A stretch of 25,928 nt of DNA from a virus. Location: IMG/VR virus record IMGVR_UViG_3300029915_000130, positions 1-25,928 of that record. One strand, 5' to 3'. Below the pieces are notes generated by a model. The model did not search any database and was not told the origin of the DNA. It saw only the letters and a list, made by a program, of their open reading frames with translations. Positions 3,559 through 25,928 of this stretch are shown one piece after another (position 1 is the stretch's first letter; every line of letters begins with the position of its first letter). Made by a program: the position numbers and the translations under genes.

Positions 3559-4061
3559 GCACTCTTGACCTCATAAGCCACGCTGTTGCGCATTTTGCCG
3601 GTGCGGATCAAGGGCTTTGCGCCGAACGTGGCCGCGTCGGAAGGATTGTACTTTGTGCCCGGGTCGACGCCGCGGCTGCGCAACGTGGACGGGGCGAGCG
3701 GCGGGTCGTTCGTGTCGACGATCGACTGTTGAAGCTGGCCGGATATGACCTCGCCCATAAGCGCAAGCGCCCGCTCGGCGTCGTAGTCGCACGCCTTCAG
3801 GGCCGCACCGAGGGCCGCGCCCCAGCCGGGTGATTCCTTGTTGACCATGTTCGTGAAGAACGGCCGGGGCGGAATGCCGCGGGCTGGCGCTCCGAAGTTT
3901 TGGATCGCCGCGACCATGGCGACCGACTCGCCCGTCTCTTCGTAGAAGTTGCCCGCCAAGAAGCCGACGTTGAGCGCGTGCTTGCCGTCTAGCCGGCGGT
4001 CGATCTCCGCCAGGGCCTCCGCCGCCTTGTCGCCCCCCGTGACCTTGACCGTGACGGGCAC
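3555..4061 (-). CDS. Tail completion protein (HK97 gp10 / Mu gpG-like)
   Basis: A 168-residue protein. Near residues 45-75 it has the pattern '...GESVAMVAAIQNFGAPARGIPPRPFFTNMV', the hallmark of the gp10/gpG morphogenesis group ('...AxxNEFGxxxxxIPPRPFxR...'). Its C-terminus 'KPLIRTGKMRNSVAYEV' also matches that group ('PLxxTGxLxxSI'). Members of this group help join heads to tails and set the tail end. The order (connector, gp10-like, neck, terminator, sheath) agrees. Confidence 0.8.
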   Translation of the reverse strand: MPVTVKVTGGDKAAEALAEIDRRLDGKHALNVGFLAGNFYEETGESVAMVAAIQNFGAPARGIPPRPFFTNMVNKESPGWGAALGAALKACDYDAERALALMGEVISGQLQQSIVDTNDPPLAPSTLRSRGVDPGTKYNPSDAATFGAKPLIRTGKMRNSVAYEVKSA

Positions 4062-4062
4062 G

Positions 4063-4515
4063 CTAATACCGCGGGTAGGGCCCGGCCCCCGGGTAGCCCG
4101 GGACGCCTAGGTTCGGATTGCAGCCCGGGCGCCAGTGCCCGCCCATGCGATAGCCGCGCATGGACGCCCAGTATTGCGCGCCGTAGGGGGTTTGATTGAA
4201 GTACGCTTGCGAGGCGCTGGTGACGGTCCCCATGTCCGTGGAGAGCGTCACGCTGCCCTCGCTGGCGCTGGCGATCCGCCCGACCACGCCCTGCCCGCCT
4301 TCCTCGCTTGGGATTGAGAGCTTGGCGATGTGAGCGGTTAGCCCGTTCAGGAGGCGAAGGCGTTGCGTGACGTCTTGGACCACGCTGCACGGCGTGTTGT
4401 CCAGCAACATGCAGGCGTCAAGGAAGAACTCGTTCGCCTGGTCCGAGGTCACGCTCGCGAACTCGGGGTAGCGGGCGATCCACGCCGCGTAGTCGAAGAC
4501 CGCCACACCGCCCAT
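4063..4515 (-). CDS. Head-tail connector protein (DUF4054)
   Basis: A 150-residue protein. Its N-terminal half ('FDYAAWIARYPEFASVTSDQANEFFLDACMLLDNT', then a helix with 'LLNGLTAHIAKL') is characteristic of DUF4054, a helical adaptor that docks under the portal. The C-terminal 'YFNQTPYGAQYWASMRGYRMGGHWRPG' is also typical. It is separated by three bases from the next upstream gene stop. The start could alternatively be the GTG at the fourth codon. Confidence 0.85.
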   Translation of the reverse strand: MGGVAVFDYAAWIARYPEFASVTSDQANEFFLDACMLLDNTPCSVVQDVTQRLRLLNGLTAHIAKLSIPSEEGGQGVVGRIASASEGSVTLSTDMGTVTSASQAYFNQTPYGAQYWASMRGYRMGGHWRPGCNPNLGVPGYPGAGPYPRY

Positions 4516-6100: not shown

Positions 6101-6841
6101 TTAAATCCTCGTGCTGATAACCGCCAGCTCGCCCGCTGCGCAGGTTTGCTCGACGTAGAAGGACGTTTCGTAGTTCAGCGTGACAGTGACCGTCTCCGCC
6201 GCCTCGGTGGTCTCCGAAGCCGACAGGGTGTAAGTCCCCACGCCGCCGGCCGCGCCGGTGAGCTGGTTCACGATGTACGAGCCGGCCGCGATGCCTGTGC
6301 CCGACACCGGCATTCCGGGGGCGAGCGGGTAGGTTCCGGCGGCAGTCACGGTCATGACCGTGGCGGCCAGGGACGCGGTGATCGTCTCGGTGATCGGCGT
6401 TGCGGTGGCGGCGGCCAGGAGCGAGCCGTCGTTGTACGAGGCATAGACCTTCTGGCCGATGGTCGCGCCGCCGGCATTGCCGAGGCTCGCAGAGAAGCGG
6501 CCCCAAAAGTCGCCGGTGTTGTGCAGCGTGATCTCAAGGCCCGATTGGACCACGAGAGACGCGGACGACAGCCATGTGGTGATCAGGGCCGGGGTCTGGC
6601 CGGTGCGGCTCACGAAGCCGATTTGAGCGTTGGCCGTGCCCGGGTTTTGGTTCGAAACCTGGCCCGTGGTCGCGTCCACCCAAGCGAAGCGCCCAACGGT
6701 CACGCCGGCCGCGCCCGCGATATTCGCGCCGCCTACGATCGGAGGGACGCGGGTTGACCGGGGGTTGGCGCCGTAGAAGTCGCCTTCGACCGCGTAAGAG
6801 GGGTCGGCGTTGATCGTCTTTTGGAAGGTTCCGAGTGCCAT
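6101..6841 (-). CDS. Capsid cement / decoration protein
   Basis: A 246-residue protein starting MALGTFQKTINADPSYAVEGDF. It continues with 'GANIAGAAGVTVGRFAWVDATTGQVSNQNPG' and 'ALITTWLSSASLVVQSGLEITLHNTGDFWGRF', as in the cement proteins next to DUF2184 capsid genes. Residues of roughly 160-230 form a Thr/Ala/Gly-rich insert ('APGMPVSGTGIAAGSYIVNQLTGAAGGVGTYTLS'). Modules like this recur in phage surface proteins and were probably acquired as a cassette. The role is stabilising and decorating the capsid. Confidence 0.8.
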   Translation of the reverse strand: MALGTFQKTINADPSYAVEGDFYGANPRSTRVPPIVGGANIAGAAGVTVGRFAWVDATTGQVSNQNPGTANAQIGFVSRTGQTPALITTWLSSASLVVQSGLEITLHNTGDFWGRFSASLGNAGGATIGQKVYASYNDGSLLAAATATPITETITASLAATVMTVTAAGTYPLAPGMPVSGTGIAAGSYIVNQLTGAAGGVGTYTLSASETTEAAETVTVTLNYETSFYVEQTCAAGELAVISTRI

Positions 6842-6848
6842 GGCGTGC

Positions 6849-8219
6849 TTAAGCCCTCTTCAGCTTGGCGGCGGTGGGGAAGCGTTCGGCGAAGGATTGA
6901 GCCGCGCCCTTGGCGTCCTGCGCGATGACGGGCGACGGGCCGCCCTTGTCCCGCGTGGACAGATGCATCTCGACCAGCGACTTATAGGCGGTCGGGTGAA
7001 CGTCCTTCGTCGCGATCTTTAGGTGATCCAGGGCGAACTTGTGGACGCCGGCCGCGCTGTCGAAAGCGGAGACCTTCAGCTTGCCGACGATCGGTTCGAC
7101 CAGCGTGATGGCTTCATGCATCGCGTTCACGCGGTGAACGGCGCGGGTCTCGGCGTCTTGGGCGATCTTGCGCACGGTGGCCTTGTCCATGGCCGGGGCC
7201 GGGTCGCCGCCAGCCGCATCGTCGTCCTCTTCCGCCGGGGCGTCTTCGTCGGCAGCGGGAGCGGCCGGGCTGGTCAGAATGCCGGTCAGTTCGGTGTAGT
7301 CGTCTTCGCCCATTTTGCCTTTGCAGAAGGCCAGGGCCTTGCTCGCGGGATCCTCTTCGGCGTCCACGGCGGGTTGATCGACAATCTTGTCGTCTTCGTC
7401 CGTGCCGTCGTCGACCTTTTCCAGCGAGTCCAGAAGCTTGATCACGCCGTCAAGGTCCGCGTCTTGCGCGAGCTTGCCCTTGGTGAGCGCCTTCAGGCCG
7501 GTGGCGATGGTCGCCTTTTGGCCCTTGAAGTTCGCCCGCGTGACGTTGGCCAACAGCGGGGCGAGGTTGATCTTGGCGTCCGCCGCCAGAAGGGGAAGCA
7601 AAGCCCCGGACAGCGCACCATGCAACAACAGTGCTTTGCGGGACTTGAGGACGGCCTTGGCCATAGAAATAATCTCCGGTTGTTCGTCGCCGACTACTAC
7701 CTCAGGCCCTTGGCGGCCCTCTTCGACAAGCGCAACATGATTTCCGACTATGTTTCGCATGATTCCGTCGTAAGACAAGCCCTCAAATTTACCGGGAGTC
7801 ATGTCTGCAACGTAAGCATAGGCGGGGCTCAACTCTTCGACCCGCTCGTCTTCAATAGCTTCAATAGCGCCCTTGTCCCATACAACGAGAGACGACTTGA
7901 GGAACGGCGCTTCCCAAAACACGCTATCACCAGTAGAGCCGACCGTCAGCTTAGGTTGCGGCTTGTCGGCTGTTACGGGAACGTGCTCGTCTAGTAGCTG
8001 AACATTGTTGAACGTCGCGGCGGCCTCCTCAAGCTCTACCGGATCGCGCAACAACATATAGACGCGGTTGGGATCGAGGCCCAAGTCCTTGTGGTTGGGG
8101 ATCTCGCTGCCCTGGTAGGGGGACACGCACGCCTTGGCGATGTTACTGACGCGGACGTGTAGACGCCCAAAGTCGTCATAGTAACGGTTCTCGGGCGCAC
8201 GGTCGAAAGCCAGGATCAT
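6849..8219 (-). CDS. DUF2213 prohead protease fused to scaffold
   Basis: A 456-residue protein. Residues 1-190 resemble DUF2213, a phage maturation protease domain ('YYDDFGRLHVRVSNIAKACVSPYQGSEIP', 'NNVQLLDEHVPVT', 'DGIMRNIVGNHVALVEEGR'). The His in DEHVPV and the later NHVALVEEGR block are the places where catalytic residues lie in this group. The remainder is Ala, Asp and Lys rich with an acidic stretch near residues 310-345, as in scaffolding domains. A single gene supplying protease and scaffold is usual upstream of cement and capsid genes. Confidence 0.85.
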   Translation of the reverse strand: MILAFDRAPENRYYDDFGRLHVRVSNIAKACVSPYQGSEIPNHKDLGLDPNRVYMLLRDPVELEEAAATFNNVQLLDEHVPVTADKPQPKLTVGSTGDSVFWEAPFLKSSLVVWDKGAIEAIEDERVEELSPAYAYVADMTPGKFEGLSYDGIMRNIVGNHVALVEEGRQGPEVVVGDEQPEIISMAKAVLKSRKALLLHGALSGALLPLLAADAKINLAPLLANVTRANFKGQKATIATGLKALTKGKLAQDADLDGVIKLLDSLEKVDDGTDEDDKIVDQPAVDAEEDPASKALAFCKGKMGEDDYTELTGILTSPAAPAADEDAPAEEDDDAAGGDPAPAMDKATVRKIAQDAETRAVHRVNAMHEAITLVEPIVGKLKVSAFDSAAGVHKFALDHLKIATKDVHPTAYKSLVEMHLSTRDKGGPSPVIAQDAKGAAQSFAERFPTAAKLKRA

Positions 8220-13442: not shown

Positions 13443-15060
13443 CTACGCCCCCGGGCCCGCTTCCGAACTGCCCGTTCTCTGCGCGGGGATGGTCTTCTTC
13501 CCGAAAGGCGGCGTCTTCAGCGCCGCCCTCCGTGTCGCCAGGGTCTTCCTCACTGTCCGGGTCCGTCTCTTGCGAGGGGTCTGCCGGCGGCTCGGGCGGG
13601 GGGCCCGACAAGTCGACGCCCGCGTAAATGCTGTCCGGGTCGTTCTGCAGGCGCTCGCGCTCTTCCTCGGGGTCGATCACGCCGGCCTGGATATAGGCCA
13701 CGCTGGTGTCGGCCTTGGTCTTGTTGATCGTGGCCTTCTCGGTGTCGGACTCTTCCCATAGCGGGACGAACTCAATGTCGATCGTCGGGTCGTTGTCGCC
13801 GAACTCGTTGAGCTCCACGAGCCGGATCATTTGCATGAGTTGCGGCTTGTCGTCTTCCTGGCGCGACTTGATCCAGCCCTGGTATGTCTTCAGCTCGCCG
13901 TCGCTGGACGCGTTCAGCCCCGTGGGCGTGATCCCGAACAGCACCACGAGCGGAATGCCCCACGCCGCGGCCTGGTGCTCTTGGGCTTGCGCCTGCAGCT
14001 TGTCCAGGCCCGCGAGCGAGGCGGATATCTGCGTGAACTCTTCGTCAGAATTGAGCGCCAGAATGCCCCGGTTGGTCCGGGTCTTGGCGAAGAGGTCCAA
14101 CCGATTCCAGAAGCCAGACGCTTGCGCGGGCGACTCTAGCGCGCTCATGTCCGTCTTGAGGACCGGCACGTTGAACGAAATGATCAGGTCTTGCACGCCC
14201 TGGCGGGTGTTCAGATAGTTGTCGACGTAGGGCTTGCCGAGCTGCGTGAGCGCCAAGCCGCTGAAGGCGTAGGCGGGCTTGAGGATATCCGGAAGCTCGC
14301 GCGCCACGAACCGCACCAGCCGCGAGACGTGAATGGCCTTGGCCATGACGTACCACATTTGGGGCTTGTAGAAGTAGGGGTCCAGGGGGTCCGTGGCGTT
14401 GAACGCCGCCGGGTAAATCCAAAAGGGTTCGACGTTGACAAAGCCCTTCAGGTCGCCCTTGCCGATCTTGCGCTTGTCCAGAATTAGCGGCCGCGTGAGC
14501 TCTTTGTCGTCGTCCGTGTCGCCGGTGTCCGGGTAGATCACGCCGCTGCCAAAGAAGCCGTCGTGCATGATGGCCGTGCGCCAGTAGTTCGCCACCATAA
14601 AGCGGCGGCAAGCGTCGGCCAGGAGGGCGGAGCGTGACTCTTTGCCCGGTGTCTTCTGGTCTTTCCCGCCGATGATCCTGAAGCCCTTGCGGGTCATATC
14701 CTTGGCGATGATCTCAACCGGCCGGCGGTATTCGGAGCGCTGCGACAGTTCGGCCAGGTACGGGAAGCCCAGGAAGCCCAGGCCCTCTTTCCAATAGCCG
14801 TAAGCGACCGTGGCCGCGTATTGGCTCCCCAGGCCCGTCATGTCGTCCATGGCCAGGAGCGTTTGGCCGTCTACCTTCTGACGTGTCGCCGGCCGCGCGC
14901 CCGGCATGGGCGGGGCGACCGTGAAGGCGTCCAGCTCGGTTGGCTCGCGGTACTTGAGCGAAGCCTGCACAACCGCCGACGCGGGGATCTTGAGCGGGCG
15001 CTTTGGCTTGGCGGCCGGGGCGGGCGTGGGCTTGCTGAAGAGACCGGCGAACGGGTTCAT
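13369..15060 (-). CDS. Portal protein (DUF1073 / phage_portal_3 type)
   Basis: A 563-residue portal subunit. The dodecameric portal forms the DNA entry channel at one capsid vertex. The start MNPFAGLFSKP is chosen because its ATG overlaps the terminase stop as ATGA, although the frame is open further upstream. Typical stretches are 'GYWKEGLGFLGFPYLAELSQRSEYRRPVEIIAKDMTRKGFRI', 'SRLVRFVARELPDILKPAY', 'FNVPVLKTDMSALES' and 'AWGIPLVVLFGITPTGLNASSDGELKTY'. The C-terminus is Pro/Asp/Glu-rich and carries 'EEDHPRAENGQFGSGPGG', a common phage linker, before the frame appears to shift. This family is sometimes labelled anti-CBASS Acb1-like. I see no Acb1 phosphoesterase motifs here. Confidence 0.9.
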   Translation of the reverse strand: MNPFAGLFSKPTPAPAAKPKRPLKIPASAVVQASLKYREPTELDAFTVAPPMPGARPATRQKVDGQTLLAMDDMTGLGSQYAATVAYGYWKEGLGFLGFPYLAELSQRSEYRRPVEIIAKDMTRKGFRIIGGKDQKTPGKESRSALLADACRRFMVANYWRTAIMHDGFFGSGVIYPDTGDTDDDKELTRPLILDKRKIGKGDLKGFVNVEPFWIYPAAFNATDPLDPYFYKPQMWYVMAKAIHVSRLVRFVARELPDILKPAYAFSGLALTQLGKPYVDNYLNTRQGVQDLIISFNVPVLKTDMSALESPAQASGFWNRLDLFAKTRTNRGILALNSDEEFTQISASLAGLDKLQAQAQEHQAAAWGIPLVVLFGITPTGLNASSDGELKTYQGWIKSRQEDDKPQLMQMIRLVELNEFGDNDPTIDIEFVPLWEESDTEKATINKTKADTSVAYIQAGVIDPEEERERLQNDPDSIYAGVDLSGPPPEPPADPSQETDPDSEEDPGDTEGGAEDAAFREEDHPRAENGQFGSGPGGVEGAVAQQACDPRQALQRVGLRGAP

Positions 15061-20137: not shown

Positions 20138-20893
20138 TTACTCGTGCAAGCCTTTGACCATCGCCAGGTATGCCGCCATGGCCGCGTCCGGGTTGGCTGC
20201 GTCAGCCTCGATATTGGCGACCACGGCGTTGAGGTCCAGCTTCACGGTATCCTTGAAGGCCGCGATGATCTTGGAAGCGTTCTCCAAGGCGCGCTGGCGG
20301 TCCGTGGTGAGTATTTCGAGGTCGCCGTTGCCCTTGCGCTTCACGCCGGCAAAAAGCGCCCTGGCGCCCTTGGAAAACTTGGACGTGTCGCGGGCGAACA
20401 CCCGCTCCGCGCCGTGGCCCTCGCACTCGGGGCAATCCTTGTTCGGATCCTTGCTGAACCAGTAATCGAGGCCGCCGGTGGCGTCGGGCATTGGCAACGT
20501 CGGGTCTTTGACCACGTTTCGCTCCCATTCCTTCATGGCCGCTTCGTACTCGTTGAGCTTCCAATGGTACAGGTGGCCGACCGACCAGCAATGGCGACAC
20601 GAGCCAACCTTGAGCCCTATCAGTTCGTTGGGATCCGCCGTCGCGATGTCCAGGAACATCGTCAGGGCGGTGGCCGCCGTGAAGGGCTCGGGAAGCTTGG
20701 CTGTCACTTCCTTCAGCAACTCGTCGCAACGCGTAGCAATCGAAGAGGTTGCCAGCAACGTGGAGCCGGCTGACCGACAAGCTGCGTCCGAAGTTGTGGA
20801 GGCTACGTTATGGCTCGCACGGTACGCCCGGCCCGGGTTGCGATCGACAACGTAGGCTCTGCAGAAAGCTTCCTGTTTAGCGGTGAGCGCCAT
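20138..20893 (-). CDS. Terminase small subunit
   Basis: A 251-residue protein. It opens 'ALTAKQEAFCRAYVVDRNPGRAYRASHN', the DNA-binding helix-turn-helix start typical of small terminase subunits ('LTxKQexFxxxYlxxxNxxxAxxxAG'). The central part has two Cys pairs, 'GSCRHCWSVGHLYHW' and 'DCPECEGHGAE', which probably bind zinc, as in a subgroup of phage small terminases. The C-terminal part is helical. It would recognise the packaging site and load the large subunit, and it is the first late gene. Its gene lies 3.4 kb upstream of the large subunit, separated by the lysis genes. Confidence 0.85.
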   Translation of the reverse strand: MALTAKQEAFCRAYVVDRNPGRAYRASHNVASTTSDAACRSAGSTLLATSSIATRCDELLKEVTAKLPEPFTAATALTMFLDIATADPNELIGLKVGSCRHCWSVGHLYHWKLNEYEAAMKEWERNVVKDPTLPMPDATGGLDYWFSKDPNKDCPECEGHGAERVFARDTSKFSKGARALFAGVKRKGNGDLEILTTDRQRALENASKIIAAFKDTVKLDLNAVVANIEADAANPDAAMAAYLAMVKGLHE

Positions 20894-20935
20894 GCGGATG
20901 GTGTCTCACAACCCGGATAGTCACGTCAAGCCAAC

Positions 20936-21279
20936 CCCCAGTATGAATTCGTACTGGGGCCCATACTGGGGGTCCATACTGGGGATTCTATATTCTCTTT
21001 AAGATCAACTACTTAACTAAATAAATCCCCAGTACCCCGGTACAAAACGCAAAATCGCCTCACGCGCATGGCGCACGCGCGTATATACGCACGCACACAC
21101 ACAGAGGGTTCGAGGGTACTGGGGGCACAGGGGGTACTGGGGATTTCGGTTGTCCACAATTGTTACGCTAAGGATTTCAATAGCTTAGCAACCCCCAGTA
21201 CGGCCCATTTCATACTGGGGGTCACAACTCCCCCACAACAGTTAGGCGTGACAATTCAAGCACTTAGCTTCCCCCAGTA
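20936..21279. repeat. Cluster of ten CCCCAGTA sites; candidate origin or multi-operator region
   Basis: This divergent intergenic region (20894-21349, no convincing gene) holds the word CCCCAGTA forward at 20936, 21027, 21193 and 21272. It appears reversed (TACTGGGG) at 20952, 20964, 20977, 21117, 21135 and 21213. The first two form a 24-base near-perfect inverted repeat centred on GAATTC. An AT-rich stretch (about 20985-21026) lies between the third reverse copy and the second forward copy. The word TTGTCCACAA at 21150, close to a DnaA box, occurs again in reverse at 21467. Repeated short words, an AT-rich tract and a DnaA-like word are the usual parts of an iteron origin. Operators of a regulator controlling both strands are the alternative. 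Confidence 0.7.
21071..21103. other. 33-base alternating purine/pyrimidine run
   Basis: Every base from 21071 to 21103 alternates purine and pyrimidine (GCGCACGCGCGTATATACGC and then repeated CA). Ten further alternating bases precede it in the other phase. Such tracts can adopt Z-DNA under negative supercoiling and unwind easily. It lies inside the CCCCAGTA cluster. Confidence 0.55.
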
Positions 21280-21286
21280 CCGGGGC

Positions 21287-21315
21287 TTGACGCCGGCTCA
21301 TTGAGCCCATATGGT
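21287..21315 (+). promoter_or_regulatory. Promoter P1 with GGCTCA-T-TGAGCC operator
   Basis: TTGACG (21287-21292), a 17-base spacer, then TATGGT (21310-21315) form a sigma70-type promoter for the early operon. The spacer contains the perfect palindrome GGCTCATTGAGCC (21295-21307), so a bound dimer would block RNA polymerase. One CCCCAGTA site (21272) lies just upstream. Similar units occur at 22684 and 24524. Confidence 0.75.
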
Positions 21316-21349
21316 GCCTTCACAACTTACCACAACTTATGGAGGCTTC

Positions 21350-21553
21350 ATGCCTGGTTACGAATTCCGCCAGCCACAAGTTACCACAACCCGGCACATG
21401 GCCACGGACGAGGACGCGAAGGGTCGGGCAGGTCGCCTGGCCAAGCGCCACAACTGCCCCGTGGAGTTGTGGACAACCGCCGGCGCCTATCTCACAACCG
21501 CACAACCCAGCCCCACGCACTTCCGCGGCTATCGCTTTGAGGCACGGACATGA
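21350..21553 (+). CDS. First early-operon protein, unknown function
   Basis: A 67-residue protein. The start MPGYEFRQPQVTTTRH at 21350 has GGAGG four bases upstream. An in-frame ATG at 21311 is unlikely because it lies within the -10 box of P1. The C-terminal part 'NCPVELWTTAGAYLTTAQPSPTHFRGYRFEART' looks folded. The stop overlaps the next ATG as ATGA. The coding DNA contains several CCACAAC words shared with the adjacent intergenic region. No family recognised. Confidence 0.65.
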   Translation: MPGYEFRQPQVTTTRHMATDEDAKGRAGRLAKRHNCPVELWTTAGAYLTTAQPSPTHFRGYRFEART

Positions 21554-24784: not shown

Positions 24785-24819
24785 CCCGTCAACACCCACC
24801 ACAAAGGACACCCAACGCC

Positions 24820-25428
24820 ATGACCACGTGGATTGAAGACGCCAACGGAAACAAATGCTCTGTCGAGTATTTCGGCTCGGCCGAGGACTCCCAGAAGGCG
24901 CTCGACAGCCTGAAGGGCTGCCGCAACTGTGTTAACTGCTCGGACTGCTCGGACTGCTCGGGCTGCTCGGGCTGCTCGTACTGCTCGGACTGCTCGGGCT
25001 GCCGCAACTGTGTTAACTGCTCGTACTGCTCGTTCTGCTCGGACTGCTCGTACTGCTCGGGCTGCTCGGACTGCTCGGGCTGCTCGTACTGCTCGTACTG
25101 CTCGGCATTGAAAGACACGAAGGGCGGCTTCGTGCCCCTGGTTGTTCCGGTGATCGCGGACATCCACCGCGTGATCTACGAAGCGGCGTCCGCACCTGAG
25201 GCCCTTCACATGTCCGATTGGCATAGCTGCGGAACGACACATTGCCGTGCCGGGTGGGCCGTTCATCTGGCCGGCGAAGAGGGCTACGCGCTCGAACACT
25301 TCCACGGGACCGCCCTGGCCGCCCAACTGATATACGACGCCAGCGGACACCCGATCAGCCCCGTTCGGTTCTTCGACAGCAACGAGGACGCGCTCGCCGA
25401 CATGAAGCGCCTAGCGGGGGCCGTATGA
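24820..25428 (+). CDS. Cys-triplet repeat protein fused to a phage C-terminal domain
   Basis: A 202-residue protein. After a short head (MTTWIEDANGNKCSVEYFGS...) residues 34-96 are 21 tandem Cys-x-x triplets, mostly CSD, CSG and CSY, with CRN-CVN twice. The C-terminal domain has 'SDWHSCGTTHCRAGWAVHLAGEEGYALEHFHG' and 'ISPVRFFDSNEDALADMKRLAG', a pattern I recognise from many uncharacterised phage proteins. One Cys every third residue would put all Cys on one face of a solenoid or three-residue helix, suited to metal binding. No enzyme function can be assigned. AAAGGA lies eleven bases before the ATG. Confidence 0.75.
   Translation: MTTWIEDANGNKCSVEYFGSAEDSQKALDSLKGCRNCVNCSDCSDCSGCSGCSYCSDCSGCRNCVNCSYCSFCSDCSYCSGCSDCSGCSYCSYCSALKDTKGGFVPLVVPVIADIHRVIYEAASAPEALHMSDWHSCGTTHCRAGWAVHLAGEEGYALEHFHGTALAAQLIYDASGHPISPVRFFDSNEDALADMKRLAGAV
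24919..25107 (+). repeat. 9-bp tandem repeat coding for Cys-Ser-x
   Basis: Twenty-one units of TGC TCG NNC (four of them CRN or CVN variants; the last ends in GCA). Ser is always TCG, and the variable codon is GAC, GGC, TAC or TTC. Thus only one or two bases per unit vary. The near identity indicates recent expansion by slippage or recombination. Confidence 0.85.
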
Positions 25429-25472
25429 AGGCCGCCGCCCTTTAAGCCGCTTAACCAAAAGGAACCACAACC

Positions 25473-25928
25473 ATGAAAACGCACCTAATCACCGCTGACC
25501 AACTCACGGACGGCACGTACACCGGCCCCGTCGATCTGACGGCCTTCGACGGGCATATTGAAATTGCCGCACGACTCGGGACCGTCAAGTTCACGGGGTG
25601 GCTCCGCGCTGCCGGCGACATTCGCGCCAAAGCGGGCTCGGGGATCAAAGCGGGCTCGGGGATCAAAGCGGGCTCGGGGATCGAAGCGGGCTCGGGGATC
25701 GAAGCGGGCTGGGGGATCGAAGCGGGCTCGGGGATCGAAGCGGGCTTGGGGATCGAAGCGGGCTCGGGGATCAAAGCGGGCTCGGGGATCAAAGCGGGCT
25801 CGGGGATCAAAGCGGGCTGGGGGATCGAAGCGGGCTGGGGGATCGAAGCGGGCTCGGGGATCGAAGCGGGCTCGGGGATCGAAGCGGGCTTGGGGATCGA
25901 AGCGGGCTCGGGGATCGAAGCGGGCTTT
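25473..25928 (+). CDS. Hexapeptide-repeat protein, 3' end outside the window
   Basis: The frame opens at ATG 25473 (AAGGA upstream) and stays open to the window end (152 codons). The head (MKTHLITADQLTDGTYTGPV...) is followed from residue 57 by sixteen six-residue repeats of the form G-I-(E/K)-A-G-(S/W/L/F). In the phase I-E-A-G-S-G each fits the left-handed beta-helix hexapeptide rule ([LIV]-[GAED]-x2-[STAV]-x). This suggests a triangular solenoid of at least five turns. The partner strand also stays open here because of the repeat, but this strand has the start signal and the operon context. Function unknown; a structural or binding role is likely. Confidence 0.75.
   Translation, partial: MKTHLITADQLTDGTYTGPVDLTAFDGHIEIAARLGTVKFTGWLRAAGDIRAKAGSGIKAGSGIKAGSGIEAGSGIEAGWGIEAGSGIEAGLGIEAGSGIKAGSGIKAGSGIKAGWGIEAGWGIEAGSGIEAGSGIEAGLGIEAGSGIEAGF
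25641..25928 (+). repeat. 18-bp tandem repeat, sixteen complete units
   Basis: Units of GGGATCRAAGCGGGCTNG (last unit ending TTT) run in perfect register to the window edge, so more copies may follow. Variation is confined to the third codon (AAA or GAA) and the sixth codon (TCG, TGG, TTG or TTT). Blocks of units recur, which points to unequal recombination. Confidence 0.9.

Follow-up and report, generated by a model that had tools for sequence, protein, structure and literature searches.

The window analysed here, an IMG/VR virus contig taken at its full length of 25,928 bases, contains an intergenic gap (20894..21349) between two divergent gene blocks. The minus-strand block starts at 20893 with the gene for the terminase small subunit (TerS; 20138..20893, -; PF03592, phrog_51) and consists of late genes, namely TerS, TerL, head and tail genes. 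On the other side of the gap, the first plausible plus-strand open reading frame (ORF; 21350..21553, +) encodes a 67 aa protein with no family match; its start at 21350 is inferred from the GGAGG that precedes the ATG. Inspection of ORFs and start codons detected no credible gene within the gap, in agreement with an earlier note on this DNA. The same note regarded the minus transcripts as late and the plus transcripts as early. The former assignment is borne out by the gene content, whereas the ORFs beyond the gap on the plus strand are small and were assigned no function in family scans, so that the "early" character of this block is unproven. No replication gene is present in the record, the contig ending before any, and no DNA-level matches to it were found in phage and plasmid collections. 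The terminal part of the window (24811-25928) carries strongly repetitive ORFs with Cys-rich SCSDCSGCS-type repeats, and the AGSGIKAGSGIEAG repeat of this region continues past the contig end.

The gap accommodates all 10 copies of the word CCCCAGTA that are present in the record. These are confined to 344 bases (20936-21279), with four copies in the forward orientation (20936, 21027, 21193 and 21272) and six in the reverse orientation (20952, 20964, 20977, 21117, 21135 and 21213), against 0.39 copies expected per record; ten copies were reached in 0 of 100 shuffles. The count in the earlier note is exact, and the even spread of the word over the genome that it named as refuting is not observed. 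Two variants, CCCCGGTA, are also located in the gap, at 21035 (+) and 21278 (-). Together, these half-sites fall into two arms, 20936-21042 and 21117-21285. The left arm opens with a 24-bp inverted half-site pair, CCCCAGTATGAA/TTCGTACTGGGG (20936..20959), the inverted repeat already recognized in the earlier note, which consists of two 12-nt arms that are 92% complementary and are not separated by a spacer; the 24-bp pair GCCAGTATCAAAGCGCGTACTGGC in a relative matches it in kind. Two more reverse half-sites follow (20964..20984, -; 20964-20971 and 20977-20984) and, after an AT-rich tract, a half-site CCCCAGTA directly followed by the variant CCCCGGTA (21027..21042, +). The right arm comprises two reverse half-sites (21117..21142, -; 21117-21124 and 21135-21142), an inverted pair (21193..21220) formed by the copies at 21193 (+) and 21213 (-), and a half-site CCCCAGTA that overlaps an inverted variant CCCCGGTA, the joint sequence being CCCCAGTACCGGGG (21272..21285).

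Two features of base composition that were pointed out in the earlier note are the extremes of the record. The AT-rich tract (20985..21026), flanked by two inverted half-sites and a candidate unwinding element, includes the most AT-rich 40-mer, which starts at 20985 (32/40), and the run of alternating purines and pyrimidines located roughly midway between the two arms (21071..21103, 33 nt) is the longest one. A perfect 16-nt inverted pair (21023-21038/21131-21146) is centred within ~2 bases of this run, and the site is therefore roughly dyad-symmetric. The description of the cluster as iteron-like does not apply in the classical sense: inverted half-sites, grouped in two arms, surround a central tract, and a classical plasmid iteron origin was rejected given the mixed orientation, the irregular spacing and the lack of an adjacent rep gene. 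The alternating centre raised the possibility of a telomere-resolution site, which was likewise rejected because, on inspection, the central tract does not form a long perfect palindrome. Palindrome scans of the collections yielded mostly single chance sites. Apart from the half-sites, the word CACAAC is represented by 9 copies on both strands at 20907-21510, some of these within the first plus ORF, compared with 29 copies record-wide.

Comparison with related phages, one of the checks named in the earlier note, revealed conservation of the layout. The position and the organization of the array are kept in four other lineages in which the word itself has diverged, the drifted words among the relatives being GCCAGTAC, CCCCGTAT, TACCCCGTA, CCCCAAGTAC and ATACCCCGA. 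The respective gap contains 12 of the 14 genome copies of GCCAGTA in G001 (IMGVR 3300044684_000176), where the array includes four 16-bp palindromes GCCAGTACGTACTGGC; 7 of the 9 copies of CCCCGTA in G002 (3300006129_000002), a genome that is circular-complete as indicated by a 100-bp terminal repeat; 11 of the 16 copies of TACCCC in G003 (3300009695_000019); and 6 of the 7 copies of CCAAGTAC in an isolated phage, Stenotrophomonas phage B2 (ON146294), with the corresponding region at 40515-40949. Thus, confinement of the repeated word to one site is true of the window and, by their own words, of the relatives. The window and G001-G003 have structural genes in common, with ~35-55% identity. TerS has the array directly upstream in each of the five main lineages, such arrays comprising 10-12 half-sites over 350-480 bp. 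The 40-mer with the highest AT content genome-wide falls in the array in all five (in G002, as one of two tied maxima), and the longest alternating run does so in four (the window and three relatives). Because this layout is kept despite the different words, the gap is probably the start of replication. GC skew, another check that had been named, provides no usable signal and lends no support to the origin: the array coincides with a maximum of the cumulative skew in G001 and lies partway along a slope in the circular G002.

Repeat-bearing noncoding regions were also noticed in other phages. Klebsiella phage KpV52 (Jedunavirus; NC_041900.1, L321) contains a ~300-bp noncoding block twice (47275-47405 plus 1-170, and 14040-14340); the two blocks are 95% identical, AT-rich, carry TACCCCG words and are located upstream of late genes. 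In Pseudomonas phage Amjad_SA (OP917824, L357), eleven GAGCACA words in both orientations (6658-6929) are found between the gene for a DUF3987 protein and an Sf6-type TerS, an arrangement comparable to the present one but accompanied by a different replication module.

Three IHF-like sequences are present between and beside the half-sites: ATCAACTACTTA (21004..21015, +) next to a half-site, and TTCAATAGCTTA (21176..21187, +) and TTCAAGCACTTA (21255..21266, +), each with a half-site 5 bases downstream. The pattern TTCAANNRCTTR occurs twice in the record, both times within the gap, and is confined to the arrays in the window, G001, G002 and G003. This pattern was derived from those same arrays, and other arrays were therefore used for the test: the textbook IHF consensus WATCAANNNNTTR has 3 matches in eight arrays that were not used for its definition, compared with 0.23 in shuffles, and 3 matches were reached by 0 of 200 shuffles. 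These matches suggest that IHF binds the array. The DnaA-box-like word reported in the earlier note does exist, as TTGTCCACA (21150..21158, +), but is the weakest part of that description, recurring in one relative only. Its sole other copy in the record (21468-21476, -) is embedded in a 13-nt perfect inverted repeat. DnaA boxes recur in G001, as two TTATCCACA, and are absent from the arrays of G002, G003 and B2 and from eight independent arrays. A universal DnaA-box origin is not supported, given that, among the arrays examined, such boxes are found only in the window and G001.

The relatives encode a primase-helicase that, according to a domain scan, contains the NrS-1 polymerase HBD and DUF5906 domains and, in a sequence search, matches the solved NrS-1 primase structures. 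This gene is present in G001, G002, G003 (as a fragment) and B2, and in many relatives it is preceded by a gene for a small TetR-HTH protein, phrog_8723. Arrays are associated with this replication gene in the relatives: they were identified in 9 lineages among 80 viral primase loci compared with 1 of 119 control loci (Fisher 0.0013), and a local AT maximum is located within 700 bp upstream of TerS at 27 of the 28 primase loci that include TerS compared with 28 of 82 TerS loci lacking an NrS-1-type primase in the flank (Fisher 4e-9), although the compared phages are all related, so that both P values overstate independence. A tenth array candidate (L433), which is mostly one-directional, was left out of the nine lineages. 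Further array words at primase loci are ATACCCCGA, AATACCCAT, CCGGTCAT, ATGACGAGT and ATCATAA. In G002 and at locus L407, the array is located just downstream of the primase-helicase gene. No recognizable array was detected in G005, where the primase, the TetR protein and a 45% identical TerS are all present. At the control locus L107, eight TGTCACA words in both orientations occur within 300 bp (3966-4272).

The location directly upstream of TerS in the five main lineages is compatible also with a packaging initiation (pac or cos) site comparable to P1 pac or lambda cosB, at which TerS would bind the words of both arms, IHF would bend the DNA and the central tract would be cut. The IHF-like sites between the arms are in line with this reading, and the two arms around a centre are reminiscent of P1 pac. 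However, the array does not track TerS similarity: TerS proteins 43-45% identical to that of the window (L197/G005 and L211) are encoded without a recognizable array, whereas those with 30-34% identity (G002 and G003) are accompanied by one. Arrays are also found upstream of GP3_package, an unrelated TerS family, and accordingly a single TerS family does not explain them; the AT maximum, furthermore, tracks the primase. Altogether, we deem a packaging site unlikely. A TerS-wide feature was rejected, with no such array found upstream of TerS in Itty13, F116, BcepC6B, LASTA, BcepMigl and Skulduggery.

The flanking gene blocks are divergent in the window and in B2, as would be expected of an early/late transcription switch, in which a repressor or activator on the half-sites would control promoters that diverge from the two ends of the gap. 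TTGACG adjoins the array on both sides, the plus-side copy being part of a weak promoter-like match, TTGACG-17-TATGGT (21287..21315, +), upstream of the plus ORF. Moreover, the array in L390/L397 and in L407 has a small DNA-binding-like gene as its neighbour, and the TACCCCG-bearing block of Jedunavirus is located upstream of two late genes. Nevertheless, the flanking genes are co-directional in G001, G002 and G003, TerS lacks a promoter with a good -10 at the minus end of the gap, and the large number and extent of the half-sites, combined with the AT maximum, the IHF-like sites and the alternating run, exceed the needs of an operator. A switch as such appears rather unlikely, and it may coexist with an origin. 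In L390 and L397, phrog_8723 is not adjacent to the primase; instead, a gene that on inspection looks like a ribbon-helix-helix protein is found beside the array. The CCGGTCA arrays and these genes (L390, 7506-8330; L397, 7699-9027) are adjacent, and the encoded proteins are possible array binders.

Mixed orientation of the words is compatible, too, with a partition centromere, that is, a parS-like array of a phage-plasmid, and at L406 a related array is followed by a ParB-like gene. However, family scans detected no partition gene in the window or near the arrays of its nearest relatives, and the word differs from lineage to lineage, making a centromere very improbable.

The earlier note named the right pair of alternatives, a replication origin or a late/early switch, of which the relatives favour the origin, but left out a packaging site. 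We conclude, with a probability of roughly 0.6, that the gap 20894-21349 is the replication origin of a phage with an NrS-1-type primase. Because the record lacks a replication gene, the initiator is deduced from the relatives; by the same comparison, this phage is predicted to encode an NrS-1-type primase, and the gap to initiate replication. In this model, both arms would be occupied by a dimeric phage-encoded protein bound to the inverted CCCCAGTA half-sites, and bending of the intervening DNA by IHF or a similar protein would bring the site into a folded form; melting of the AT-rich tract (20985-21026) would then allow the NrS-1-type primase-helicase to be loaded there and synthesis to start. 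The origin-or-switch reading of the earlier note, with its dimeric binding protein, is partly supported. The leading candidate for the reader of the word is phrog_8723, which adjoins the primase in relatives of the window and, as a TetR-like protein, would be suited to reading inverted half-sites as a dimer; alternatively, the primase itself could read the word. An AlphaFold model of the primase C-terminus, built with a P4-like origin-binding domain in mind, was too poor to use (pLDDT 44).

A broader generalization can be put forward only tentatively. It is possible, if doubtful, that these sites represent a widespread, undescribed class of origins, such that phages with an NrS-1-type primase-helicase initiate at a two-armed array of inverted half-sites upstream of TerS, with phrog_8723, encoded directly before the primase, reading a fast-evolving, lineage-specific word of 7-9 bp and recruiting the helicase. 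To our knowledge, the origins of most phages are unknown, and a search of the literature on origins in these phages found nothing. If the generalization is correct, a primase gene together with the gap before TerS would predict where replication begins in many phages of the Jedunavirus-like and related groups, the diverged words and their recognition proteins would provide a natural series for studying changes of initiator specificity, and the system would show how D5/SF3-like helicases are loaded on duplex DNA without DnaA.

Among the known systems, P1 pac and lambda cosB combine short TerS words with IHF near the TerS gene. The array resembles them in the short words and IHF-like sites near TerS but, unlike them, is independent of TerS similarity or family. 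The lambda origin consists of palindromic iterons and an AT-rich region inside gene O. Palindromic sites, bound by the initiator in lambda, and an AT tract are common to both, whereas the site described here is intergenic and two-armed, and no O-like gene is seen. In phage P4, the alpha primase-helicase acts at an origin with type I iterons. Here again, short words in both orientations lie by an AT-rich tract, in P4 used by the phage primase-helicase; the word, however, is different. Finally, the polymerase of phage NrS-1 needs an 8-nt template word, TTTGGTTA, two copies of which, one per strand, are located at the genome centre and constitute the proposed origin (PMC7102993, PMC8718748). The window similarly has a short, 8-nt word on both strands, and its relatives carry the same PrimPol-DUF5906 type of enzyme. 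In contrast to the two copies of TTTGGTTA in NrS-1, however, the sites described here combine 10-12 half-sites with an AT tract, IHF-like sites and an alternating run, and the array-bearing phages additionally possess a separate PolA-like polymerase.
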